This document shows positions 3,778 to 7,778 of a stretch of DNA of 9,181 nucleotides, piece after piece. The DNA is from Candidatus Stramentimicrobium fermentans (GTDB lineage Bacteria > Atribacterota > Phoenicimicrobiia > Phoenicimicrobiales > Stramentimicrobiaceae). The position numbers and the translations under genes were made by a program. Numbering within the stretch: the first letter of the stretch is position 1; the number at the start of each line of letters is the position of its first letter. The notes beneath the pieces are model-generated. The model was not told the origin of the DNA, did no database searches, and saw only the letters and a program-made list of their open reading frames with translations. The stretch lies in assembly GCA_012520575.1 (NCBI GenBank), contig JAAYOB010000012.1, forward strand, positions 1 to 9,181, given 5' to 3'.

Positions 3778-4617
3778 ATGGGCAATAAAGAACGTTTGGA
3801 TAAATTGCTGGTTGATAAAGGATTAGTGGAATCCCGAGAGAAAGCCAAAAGGTTTATTATGGCAAACCTGGTGCAAGTAAATGGGGTAACAGTCACTAAA
3901 TCGGGTACCAGGATTGATACGAATAGCCATTTGATGGTAAATAACAGAGCTGAACATTATGTCAGCAGAGGCGGTAATAAACTAAATAAAGCTTTAATTG
4001 AGTTTAATATTGTGCTAATCGAAAAAACAGTAATAGATGTAGGCGCCTCTACCGGCGGTTTTACCGATTGTCTTCTACAGTTTGGAGCTGAAAAAGTTTG
4101 CTGTGTGGATGTCGGCTATGGACAACTTGATTGGTCTTTGCGCCATGACCCGCGGGTAATAAATATGGAAAAGACCAACATAAGATACCTTACCAAAGAG
4201 CATTTCGATTTTCTTTTTGATTTAGCCACTGTCGATGTCTCTTTTATTTCCTTAGAAAAAGTGTTTCCGGTACTGGCAGAATTGTTAAAGCCGGAGGGAG
4301 AGGTTATCGCTTTAGTAAAGCCGCAATTTGAAGCTGGTAGAAAATTGGTTAAAAAAGGTGGTATTGTAGACAATCCGGATGTCCATTTGGAGGTAATTAA
4401 TAATCTTGTAGAAAGAGTACAGGATAATTTCCGGTTAATCGATACGACCTTTTCCCCATTGAAGAATGTTCCGGGAAATATAGAATATTTTCTTTATTTG
4501 AAAAAGAAAAAGGGGAAGAATTGCTTAAATCCGGCAAATAATACACCCATCAAAAAGATGATAGAGGAAGCTCATCAATATTTTTCCAAAGAGTATAAGA
4601 GGGGAGAATCTCTCTGA
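3778..4617 (+). CDS. tlyA: TlyA family 16S/23S rRNA (cytidine-2'-O)-methyltransferase
   Basis: TlyA enzymes methylate the 2'-O of cytidine in rRNA (C1920 of 23S, and in one subtype also C1409 of 16S); the old name hemolysin A is misleading. The 279-residue protein has an N-terminal S4 RNA-binding domain (about 5-64, opening with KERLDKLLVDKGL) and an FtsJ-like Rossmann domain (about 65-245). The S-adenosylmethionine loop is DVGASTGGFTD (87-97). A K-D-K-E tetrad typical of this fold can be placed at K68 (SRGGNKL), D153 (TVDVSF), K181 (LVKPQFE) and E236 (GNIEYF). ATG 3778 fits the family N-terminus and an in-frame stop just upstream excludes a longer form. The nearest purine box, GAGG (3773-3776), is one base from the ATG, too close to be a good ribosome binding site. 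A roughly 30-residue basic tail follows the domain. Which rRNA sites it modifies cannot be decided here. Confidence 0.94.
   Translation: MGNKERLDKLLVDKGLVESREKAKRFIMANLVQVNGVTVTKSGTRIDTNSHLMVNNRAEHYVSRGGNKLNKALIEFNIVLIEKTVIDVGASTGGFTDCLLQFGAEKVCCVDVGYGQLDWSLRHDPRVINMEKTNIRYLTKEHFDFLFDLATVDVSFISLEKVFPVLAELLKPEGEVIALVKPQFEAGRKLVKKGGIVDNPDVHLEVINNLVERVQDNFRLIDTTFSPLKNVPGNIEYFLYLKKKKGKNCLNPANNTPIKKMIEEAHQYFSKEYKRGESL
4600..4606 (+). promoter_or_regulatory. ribosome binding site that supports a CTG start at 4614
   Basis: AGGGGAG lies within the last codons of tlyA, seven bases before CTG 4614. No ATG, GTG or TTG follows at a usable distance in any frame with a long open reading frame, so this site points to the CTG, or less likely ATA 4617, as initiator of the next gene. 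Short TCTC repeats at 4611-4614 could pair with GAGA (4604-4607) and partly cover the site. Confidence 0.6.
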
Positions 4618-5138
4618 TATATTTAATTATAGGCACATTATTATCGGGCGGAATAATATCCCTCCTTCTTTTTCTGAAAATAAAAAGTATTTTTGGCAGT
4701 AGACAGGCCACTAAAAGAACGTTAATTAGTAAGCGGGCAGAAAATAAAGCTGAAAAATATCTAAAGAATAATGGTTTTCAGATTATCGGAAAACAGCAGA
4801 GCAAACCTTTAATCATAAAAGCGGGGACAATTACCCATCACTACTTAATAAGAGCTGATCTATTAGCAAGAAAGAATGGCAGGACCTATGTTGTTGAAGT
4901 AAAGAGCGGTTCTCAAAATAAAATAACTAACAGAGAGACCAGAAGACAATTATTGGAATATTTTCTGGCTTATCGGCCTTATGGGATTATTCTCTTCGAT
5001 ATGGAGACCAAAAAATTTTCTGAGATAAAATTTCTTTTACCTTATTTTCGTTCCCGATTAATGGAAAATACCATCTTCTTTCTACTGGGCGCCTTGCTTA
5101 CTCTGTTGGGTTTCTATATTGTTCTTAAAATGGTCTGA
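4614..5138 (+). CDS. membrane-anchored PD-(D/E)XK nuclease-like protein, probable CTG start
   Basis: I do not recognise a named family. The frame is open from 4599 to the TGA at 5136-5138; from CTG 4614 it gives 174 residues. Segment 1-21 is hydrophobic and followed by KIK and other basic residues, so the central part should lie in the cytoplasm; a second hydrophobic segment (about 154-171) ends the protein. In between, residues 40-145 look like a PD-(D/E)XK nuclease: a helix with E43 and E47 (AENKAEKYL), D82 in a strand (RADLL), E95-V-K97 after a turn (YVVEVKSG), and Q112-xxx-Y116 (QLLEY), the motif of RecB and Cas4-type nucleases. This suggests cleavage or binding of nucleic acid at the membrane, which is inference. 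It overlaps the tlyA stop by four bases and ends nine bases before nadK, so it is translated within the operon. A one-base change from ATG, or a sequencing error, could explain the CTG. Confidence 0.8.
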   Translation: MIYLIIGTLLSGGIISLLLFLKIKSIFGSRQATKRTLISKRAENKAEKYLKNNGFQIIGKQQSKPLIIKAGTITHHYLIRADLLARKNGRTYVVEVKSGSQNKITNRETRRQLLEYFLAYRPYGIILFDMETKKFSEIKFLLPYFRSRLMENTIFFLLGALLTLLGFYIVLKMV

Positions 5139-5147
5139 GGAGAAAAG

Positions 5148-6047
5148 ATGAAGATTACTAAAACAGGTTTAATAGTTAATAAGGAGAGGGACAGAAACTT
5201 CTTAATAACTAAAAAATTGGTCAATTATTTAATAGGGAAAGGGGTAGAAGTTTTTATCCCTGAAGATATTATACTAAAATTTCCTGAATCAAAATTGATA
5301 CATACCCTTACCGAATCTTATCAAGGACTTAATATGTTTTTTTCTTTGGGAGGAGACGGAACATTGCTGAGAGCCGCCAGGTTGGCCTCTCCCCATGGTA
5401 TCCCGGTCTGCGGCATAAATTTAGGAGGGCTAGGTTTTTTAACCCAAGTAGGTATAGAGGAAATAGACCATTACTTACCTCAAATATTGGCCAACGATTG
5501 CCGGATAGAAGAAAGAATGATGTTATCTGGCTATATACACAGAAATGGTAAAAAGACAGGGAGATTTTATTGTCTTAACGATGTAGTTATTTCCAAAAAA
5601 TTATTTGCCCGATTAGTGGAGCTAGAGATGTTTATTAATGAAGAGTATGTTATTCAATATGCTGCTGATGGTTTAATCATTTCTACCTCCACCGGTTCAA
5701 CTGCCTATTCTCTTTCTGCCGGTGGACCTATTATCTATCCTGACATAAAGACTATTATTATTACACCCATCTGCCCTCATACTCTTTCTGCCAGAACCCT
5801 GGTTGTTCATCATAATGACCATATTAAAATTATTATTCGCTCCAAAGAAGAGGAAGTAATGCTGACCATTGATGGTCAGCAAGGATTTGATCTTGAGGAG
5901 AATGATGTAATAGAAATATATAAGTCCAGGTATAAAACTCAATTAGTGACTTTTCCCGGAAAGAGTTTCTATAGCATTTTAAGGAGAAAATTAAAATGGA
6001 GCGGCAGAGTCATTCCCCCTATTGCTGAACGTAAGGAAGGGTCATAA
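5148..6047 (+). CDS. nadK: NAD kinase
   Basis: NAD kinase phosphorylates NAD at the 2' position of its adenosine ribose to make NADP, the only route to NADP. The 299-residue length is normal. Family motifs are in order: GGDGT (68-72) for phosphate binding, GINLGGLGFL just after it, the paired N144-D145 (NDVVI) of the NAD site, D174, and TSTGSTAYSLSAGGP (from T180), followed by a C-terminal beta domain containing TIDGQ. The start is well supported by GAGGAG (5137-5142), five bases before ATG, overlapping the stop of the preceding gene. recN follows after three bases. The tlyA-nadK-recN order is common in Bacillota. A 20-base inverted repeat lies inside the gene at 5861-5880. Confidence 0.97.
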   Translation: MKITKTGLIVNKERDRNFLITKKLVNYLIGKGVEVFIPEDIILKFPESKLIHTLTESYQGLNMFFSLGGDGTLLRAARLASPHGIPVCGINLGGLGFLTQVGIEEIDHYLPQILANDCRIEERMMLSGYIHRNGKKTGRFYCLNDVVISKKLFARLVELEMFINEEYVIQYAADGLIISTSTGSTAYSLSAGGPIIYPDIKTIIITPICPHTLSARTLVVHHNDHIKIIIRSKEEEVMLTIDGQQGFDLEENDVIEIYKSRYKTQLVTFPGKSFYSILRRKLKWSGRVIPPIAERKEGS

Positions 6048-6050
6048 ATT

Positions 6051-7778
6051 ATGCTCTGTTACCTTAAGATAAAAAACTTTGCTCTGATAGATGATCTTAA
6101 TGTAGAATTTGAAAAAGGGCTCAATGTACTTACCGGAGAAACCGGAGCAGGAAAGTCAATGGTCATAGAGGCTATAAATATAGTCTTAGGAGCCCCCTTT
6201 AAGCAAAGCTGGATTAAGAATGGTCAAGAATCTTTAGATATTGAAGCTTTATTTTGCTTAGTTGGCATGCCTTCAAAACAATGGCAAGAATTGCAAAATG
6301 TTACTAATATACCCCTTGAAGACCAGCAAATAATCATTAGACGAAAGATACACCATACCAGAAGAAGTAGTTGTTTCATTAACGGCCAGCTGGCTACCCT
6401 GTCGATGCTTCAACAGATCGGTAATTATTTGATAGATTTGCATGGTCAGCATGAACACCAATCATTATTAAACCCTGAATATCATATTGACCTTGTTGAT
6501 AGTTTTGGAGATGGCTCTTTTTTAGCCAAAAAAGAAATGCATCAGAAGATTTATAAAAAGTGGCAGAATAAAATAAAACTGCTCAATCAACTGGAACAAA
6601 AACACACAGAGGTTTTATCTCAGAGGGATTATCTCTTATTCCAGCTTAGTGAGATTGAGCAGGCAAATTTAAAAGAGGGGGAAGACCGAGAAATAGAAGA
6701 GACCTTAAGCATAATTCAACATCAAGCCAAAATAAAAGAAGTTATGGAAATAGCCCATGAAGCTTTGTTTGAAAGCAATAACGAAGGAGGTTCTCCTATT
6801 TATGATATTTTAACCAGACTTATCAGCCAATTTAATACCATTTCTTTACCGGAGCAAAAATTTAATAACATTAAAGCACAATTGACAGACCTGCAATTTA
6901 AAGTAGAAGATATATCTGCACAAATAATGGAGTATAAGGAAAAAATTGACTTGGATGTTTATCAATTGCAGGAAATTGAAGAGAGATTAAATATAATAAA
7001 TCATTTAAAACAGAAATATAACCCGCAAATAGGAGAAATATTAAAATACCATGAACGGCTACAGGAGCAAATGGATTCAATAGAAGATGGCCGGGCAAAG
7101 ATTGATATACTGAAAAAAGAAATTTTTGAGTATGAGCAGAGTTTGATTAACCTATCTTTAGAATTGAGCTGCCAGCGAAAAAAAATATCTCAACGGCTAG
7201 CGCAAGATATTATCAAAGAATTGGCAGATCTGAATATGAAAGATTGTGATTTTGTAGTAAAGACTGAACAACAAGAAGAACAAAATGGTTTAAGGATTGG
7301 AGATAAACAAATAAAGATAACTTCCAAGGGTATTGACCGGATTGAATTCTTTATCTCTACAAATATCGGAGAAAAGGTTAAACCGTTATCTGAAATAGTT
7401 TCAGGGGGAGAAGTGTCCAGAATAATGTTGGGTTTAAAATCTATTCTGAGTAAGGCAGACCAAATACCAACAATGATTTTTGATGAAATTGATAGCGGTG
7501 TGGGGGCACGTTTAGGTGAGAACATCGCTCAAAAATTAGCGAAGTTAGCAGAAAGTCATCAGGTTATAGCAGTTACACATCTGCCCCAAATTGCCTCTCT
7601 GGCAGACCAGCATCTTTATATCAGCAAATATACTTCTCAGAAAAAGACTGCACTAACCATAAAGAGGTTACAAGGAGATGAGCAACTTTCTGAGATAGCT
7701 CGAATGCTTGATGGTGAAAAATATGGTGCCCTTAGTATTGAACATGCCCGTAAGATGCTCTATCGGAAGGGAGAGTGA
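6051..7778 (+). CDS. recN: DNA repair protein RecN (SMC-like ATPase)
   Basis: RecN is an SMC-family ATPase that acts early at DNA double-strand breaks, with RecA. The 575-residue length is typical. The N-terminal ATPase half has Walker A GETGAGKS (29-36) and the RecN-like stretch LIDLHGQHEHQSLLNP. A long coiled-coil arm rich in Glu, Gln and Lys runs from about 160 to 390. The C-terminal half has the ABC signature SGGEVSR (451-457), Walker B MIFDEIDSG with D478 and E479, and VTHLPQIAS. All catalytic elements are intact. GGAAGG (6035-6040) lies ten bases before ATG. The gene follows nadK after three bases and precedes the sigma-54 activator by four, so it is mid-operon. No LexA-type operator was recognised nearby. 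Confidence 0.97.
   Translation: MLCYLKIKNFALIDDLNVEFEKGLNVLTGETGAGKSMVIEAINIVLGAPFKQSWIKNGQESLDIEALFCLVGMPSKQWQELQNVTNIPLEDQQIIIRRKIHHTRRSSCFINGQLATLSMLQQIGNYLIDLHGQHEHQSLLNPEYHIDLVDSFGDGSFLAKKEMHQKIYKKWQNKIKLLNQLEQKHTEVLSQRDYLLFQLSEIEQANLKEGEDREIEETLSIIQHQAKIKEVMEIAHEALFESNNEGGSPIYDILTRLISQFNTISLPEQKFNNIKAQLTDLQFKVEDISAQIMEYKEKIDLDVYQLQEIEERLNIINHLKQKYNPQIGEILKYHERLQEQMDSIEDGRAKIDILKKEIFEYEQSLINLSLELSCQRKKISQRLAQDIIKELADLNMKDCDFVVKTEQQEEQNGLRIGDKQIKITSKGIDRIEFFISTNIGEKVKPLSEIVSGGEVSRIMLGLKSILSKADQIPTMIFDEIDSGVGARLGENIAQKLAKLAESHQVIAVTHLPQIASLADQHLYISKYTSQKKTALTIKRLQGDEQLSEIARMLDGEKYGALSIEHARKMLYRKGE

Follow-up and report, generated by a model that had tools for sequence, protein, structure and literature searches.

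A double-anchored PD-(D/E)XK-fold protein family between tlyA and nadK in Atribacterota and many Bacillota

What is encoded between tlyA and nadK in Candidatus Stramentimicrobium fermentans, and what might its product do? In the 9,181-nucleotide stretch of DNA analysed here (the window), a first-pass annotation had proposed a gene for a nuclease-like protein of the PD-(D/E)XK superfamily, held in the membrane at both ends. We conclude that this is a real, overlooked gene and that its product most likely acts as a metal-dependent DNase from a tethered position on the inner face of the membrane, with substrate and role as the inferred parts of this reading. As an overall explanation, it appears fairly probable that a double-anchored PD-(D/E)XK protein on the cytoplasmic side acts on DNA as a metal-dependent nuclease, and that lineages in which the enzyme is dead have kept it for binding or docking. 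Coding constraint, predicted fold, catalytic residues, anchors and gene order were computed; cutting, metal and substrate are what we infer from them.

The reading frame and its missing start

The coding region lies on the forward strand at 4614-5138 (174 codons plus stop). It is free of stop codons throughout, within a frame open from 4599; when the 540 bases were shuffled 2000 times by mononucleotides, a fully open frame never arose. As had been claimed, it fills the space between two conserved neighbours on the same strand: it shares four bases (CTGA, 4614-4617) with the stop of tlyA (3778-4617), and nine bases separate its end from the ATG at 5148 of nadK (5148-6047), which is followed in the same gene row by recN (6051-7778). 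Relatives bear out its coding nature as well, with homologues in several phyla and dN/dS of 0.07-0.22 in pairs from lineages with a complete catalytic site and 0.07-0.23 in pairs of enzyme-dead copies, several of these pairs being near saturation at synonymous sites. Such low values in both indicate that both kinds are under selection.

The start of the window gene is uncertain, an aspect which the first-pass annotation had omitted. Its frame has no ATG, GTG or TTG upstream of the core, and the first standard in-frame start, TTG4953, is located 3' of the codons for D82, E95 and K97; standard gene callers would therefore miss the gene. The probable start is CTG4614, located 7 bases downstream of a putative Shine-Dalgarno-like AGGGGAG (4600-4606, forward strand). 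Near relatives have an in-frame ATG, GTG or TTG before the first helix together with a longer spacer or leader. When window positions 4596-4632 are compared with two of these relatives (L004 and L032), the spacer between tlyA and the gene, as well as the leader, are absent and the tlyA frame extends into the window gene. Judging by this comparison, the window copy seems to have lost the spacer/leader stretch, which joined the end of tlyA onto the gene. The window (4600-4616) and the relatives L004 and L032 (upstream of the core) have in common a short inverted repeat near the gene start (GAGGGGAGAATCTCTC; AAGGGGAAGAATTCCTCTT; AAGGGGGGAAATTCCCTTT), and a search for an RNA hairpin over the window gene start gave a folding z of -0.15, which is not unusual.

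The missing standard start and the absent spacer and leader could also mean that the gene is decaying in the window and can no longer be started. However, its frame is intact, its active site is complete, the AGGGGAG is suitably spaced from CTG4614, and dN/dS against the nearest relatives is 0.07-0.08 (with synonymous sites near saturation), so that we regard decay as very improbable.

Predicted fold, active site and membrane anchors

The AlphaFold2 model of the window protein (mean pLDDT 94.2) consists of one long helix (residues 2-52), a core, and a last helix (residues 144-173). The core has the alpha-beta-beta-beta-alpha-beta arrangement of the PD-(D/E)XK superfamily (AlphaFold2, Foldseek, VIA-align), in line with the fold that had been proposed. 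Solved structures resembling the model are Cas4 SSO0001, AdnA, ACE1, a YraN-type protein (3fov) and Hjc: Foldseek matched Cas4 SSO0001 (1.7e-5) and AdnA (5e-5), and the best VIA-align match was 3fov (Z 10.7, 88 residues, 2.4 A), followed by Cas4 (Z 8.9), AdnA (8.8) and Hjc (8.6). The folds of tRNA splicing endonucleases were also among the structural matches, and a library of viral structures returned general PD-(D/E)XK matches only, with nothing closer to the window protein.

The D ... (D/E)xK motif of the superfamily is present as D82 (4857-4859) and E95-V96-K97 (4896-4904), and the QxxxY motif (Q112, Y116) is part of a longer RRQxLEY segment, R110 to Y116 (4941-4961); D82, E95, K97, Q112 and Y116 are the residues initially named. 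Profile alignment places D82, E95, K97, Q112 and Y116 on the corresponding residues of Cas4, and E43 (4740-4742, forward strand like the others) on Glu9 of Pyrococcus Hjc. The window protein is a mix, with a YraN/Hjc-like first half and a RecB/Cas4-like second half that carries QxxxY. In 23 Atribacterota sequences E43, Q61, R80, D82, E95, V96, K97, G99, R110, R111, Q112, L114, E115 and Y116 are invariant. Across 68 proteins from several phyla, D82, K97, R110, R111, Q112, L114, E115 and Y116 remain invariant, while E43, Q61, E95 and G99 are found in at least 90%; the sequence sets were found partly by patterns with RRQ-LEY or EVK, and invariance in the larger set is somewhat favoured by this search. 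The outcomes that would have spoken against the proposed gene, namely a lack of any homologues that keep D82, E95 and K97, a different fold or codons free of constraint, were not what we found.

Both ends of the protein are hydrophobic, as had been noted. An N-terminal membrane helix (residues about 1-23; 4614-4682) runs into the long first helix, and a C-terminal one covers residues about 152-172 (5067-5129; both on the forward strand). With a membrane helix defined as an 18-residue stretch of mean hydropathy of at least 1.6, the N-terminal helix was detected in 119 of 123 family proteins, L096 among the exceptions being a trimmed sequence, and the C-terminal helix in 106. The mean net charge in the family is +5.2 after the N-terminal helix, on the side of the core, and +0.45 before it, on the outside. 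This bias suggests that the nuclease-fold core should face the cytoplasm, and together with hydropathy and the model it agrees with the topology first put forward.

The mechanism that we propose combines these elements. A helix at each end would fix the window protein in the cytoplasmic membrane with its PD-(D/E)XK core in the cytoplasm, where E43, D82, E95 and K97 would coordinate a divalent metal ion for the cleavage of nucleic acid, and where Q112 and Y116 may assist catalysis as they do in RecB/Cas4 nucleases. The substrate could be DNA ends or branches near the membrane, either of incoming DNA or of membrane-attached chromosomal DNA. DNA is favoured because the structural relatives process DNA and because recN is in the gene row; RNA is conceivable as well.

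Distribution, gene order and loss of the catalytic triad

Protein searches found homologues in 36 of 61 genomes, all of one phylum, and profile searches found them in 36 of 50 Atribacterota genomes; overall, almost all members of this phylum have a copy in the tlyA-nadK slot. The order tlyA, family gene, nadK, recN was seen in the loci read as far as the contigs extend. One Atribacterota family (f6, L109-L114) is a clean absence, in which tlyA is directly followed by nadK, whereas the absence of the gene in G005, G020, G024 and G049 probably reflects missing contigs, as a nadK match is also absent there. When 84,980 species genomes were scanned with patterns, 76 loci came up; going by record title, they belong to Atribacterota and to many Bacillota, with isolated cases in Bacteroidota, Chlamydiota, Myxococcota, Acidobacteriota and other groups. 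In 64 of them the gene adjoins tlyA, nadK or recN, and its place in the row beside recN, to which attention had been drawn, is a fixed one. Some distant copies are located away from recN, and the repair link of the family therefore rests on gene order only. In the phylum of Heliorestis (Bacillota), 71 of 299 sampled genomes matched the family, or 69 (about 23%) after removal of two judged to be YraN; the sequences left out of the counts as apparent YraN were G223, G266, G215 and the second match of G256, of which all except G215 were read. The gene is mostly single-copy, and cultured carriers (for example Thermosediminibacter, Tepidanaerobacter, Heliorestis and Desulforadius) make the role of this membrane-bound nuclease fold directly testable.

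Several individual loci deserve mention. In L120, L125 and L127, an extra small protein of about 70-80 residues, DUF2007-like by eye, is encoded between the family gene and nadK. A contig labelled Spirochaetes (L039, QNBN01000209.1) carries the Atribacterota version and is probably mislabelled or misbinned. In L098 (Chitinispirillaceae), the family gene adjoins a large SbcC-like ATPase (by eye) on the opposite strand.

TlyA is an rRNA methyltransferase, and the four-base overlap links the window gene closely to tlyA; one could thus imagine a membrane-bound ribonuclease that acts with TlyA on ribosomal RNA. Against this, most of the structurally similar proteins are enzymes that act on DNA, and several Bacillota loci keep the family gene with nadK while tlyA is elsewhere. 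We consider such a ribonuclease improbable.

All active-type lineages, among them each complete Atribacterota copy in the alignment, keep the catalytic site in full. The nuclease reading does not extend to the whole family, as the loci read show a slot copy without the D-(D/E)-K triad in 33 of the 69 Bacillota genomes with the gene. The changes are varied (K97 to N, R or I; E95 to K; D82 to S, K or P). Enzyme-dead copies in the tlyA-nadK slot are L115-L128, L130, L131, L133, L134, L137, L138, L146, L152, L156, L158-L161, L163, L167, L168, L171 and L174; the pairs tested are under purifying selection and the membrane anchors are usually kept. A tree of 123 proteins, built without the catalytic columns, implies at least eight changes of catalytic state. 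With the full tree, an AU test does not reject one common origin of the enzyme-dead copies (p 0.122), and two separate losses of the triad are supported in a reduced set (p 0.005, for a group chosen after seeing the tree). The triad has probably been lost more than once in Bacillota.

Since the slot is kept in genomes without the triad, cutting is dispensable in those lineages, and its loss in about half of the Bacillota carriers means that nuclease activity cannot be the sole conserved function. In several Bacillota lineages, where the cutting site is gone and the protein is under selection, it would probably be a membrane-bound binding or docking protein only, a role independent of cutting for which the enzyme-dead lineages speak. 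The same observations (retained slot, anchors and purifying selection, repeated changes of state, two supported losses) could be taken further, to a conserved role that is structural throughout, in which this membrane protein would bind a partner protein or nucleic acid, while catalysis would be ancestral or secondary. A precedent is SmdA of Staphylococcus, which is anchored, needed for division and without several conserved NERD residues (PMC9040797). The intact site throughout the active-type lineages, the complete Atribacterota copies included, argues against this extension, and we find it unlikely. A broader version is possible, if less likely than not, and we put it forward tentatively: the double-anchored family may be a standing part of the tlyA-nadK-recN row in Atribacterota and many Bacillota whose conserved task is to keep a partner or nucleic acid at the membrane, cutting being an ancestral activity repeatedly lost. 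If so, a single gene position would span a natural range of forms, from enzyme to pseudo-enzyme, where enzyme and enzyme-dead forms can be compared.

Comparison with known nuclease families

Returning to the membrane-tethered DNase as the preferred reading of the window protein, we compared it with known families. In Pfam and NCBIfam the window protein matched only below threshold and its relatives could be placed in no clear family, and we found no paper on this tlyA-nadK gene position. An identity can thus be given to a conserved core-row gene which is named by no Pfam or NCBIfam model.

YraN is a soluble protein. Its family (UPF0102, PF02021; score 18.1 against a gathering cut-off of 23.6 bits) provides the best structural match, 3fov, and shares the order E...D...ExK, but it has neither RRQ-LEY/QxxxY nor membrane helices. 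The distinction from YraN drawn at the outset stands: PF02021 is above cut-off in 54 of 61 genomes, and the window genome has its own YraN as a separate gene (G000:C49:49568-49840) beside an rnhB-like gene; most relatives likewise have a true YraN of their own. This co-occurrence rules out a YraN replacement or orthologue. A YraN-related protein made by others had no detectable nuclease activity (PMC10140301), a point against the nuclease reading of the window protein. Cas4 and RecB-AddB type nucleases (4ic1, AdnA, AddAB) share the core and QxxxY, while the window protein differs by its membrane helices, its chromosomal housekeeping row and, as it contains no cysteine, the lack of the Fe-S site of Cas4; it scored 22.4 against a cut-off of 65 bits for TIGR00372 and 14.8 against 22.7 for PF01930. 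An AddAB stand-in is ruled out by a separate AddAB-like pair in the window genome.

A similar general architecture is found in proteins with an N-terminal membrane helix and a cytoplasmic PD-(D/E)XK domain. COG4741 combines such a helix with a small YraN-like nuclease and has been predicted to defend the cell, in association with the membrane, against foreign DNA (PMC1189080). ShdA, an RmuC-domain protein, is an experimentally shown membrane-bound DNase; it breaks down DNA in vitro, reduces transformation and blocks phages (PMC10270631). By this general likeness the window family could likewise serve at the membrane as a defence against foreign DNA. Yet it is encoded in a fixed housekeeping row, mostly once per genome, and PADLOC matches were weak and of Cas4/DruK type only. 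Searches of plasmids, phages and viral contigs gave no family match, which also rules out a mobile or phage gene. We therefore deem a guard function rather unlikely, if somewhat less so than a purely structural one.

Nor is the window protein a member of these families. PF10107 (COG4741/Endonuc_Holl) had no match in 41 genomes, with positive controls, which rules out COG4741, for which a C-terminal helix and QxxxY are not described. Pfam scans gave no match to PF02646 (RmuC), in the case of the window protein at E values up to 10, and RmuC and ShdA are large, with long coiled coils and one anchor. The NERD-domain protein SmdA, which is anchored at its N-terminus and which cells need in order to divide (PMC9040797), resembles the window protein in the N-terminal helix and nuclease-related domain, but has 302 residues, another C-terminal part, one anchor and a gene outside the tlyA-nadK slot; PF08378 (NERD) scored 13.8 against a cut-off of 22.1 bits in the window protein and matched weakly in 15 of 68 family members. 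The unusual stand-alone form first suggested is instead a new and widespread family, unnamed by Pfam and NCBIfam, of a membrane-tethered PD-(D/E)XK kind already known from RmuC/ShdA, COG4741 and SmdA, and the few known membrane-tethered nuclease-fold proteins thereby gain one family.
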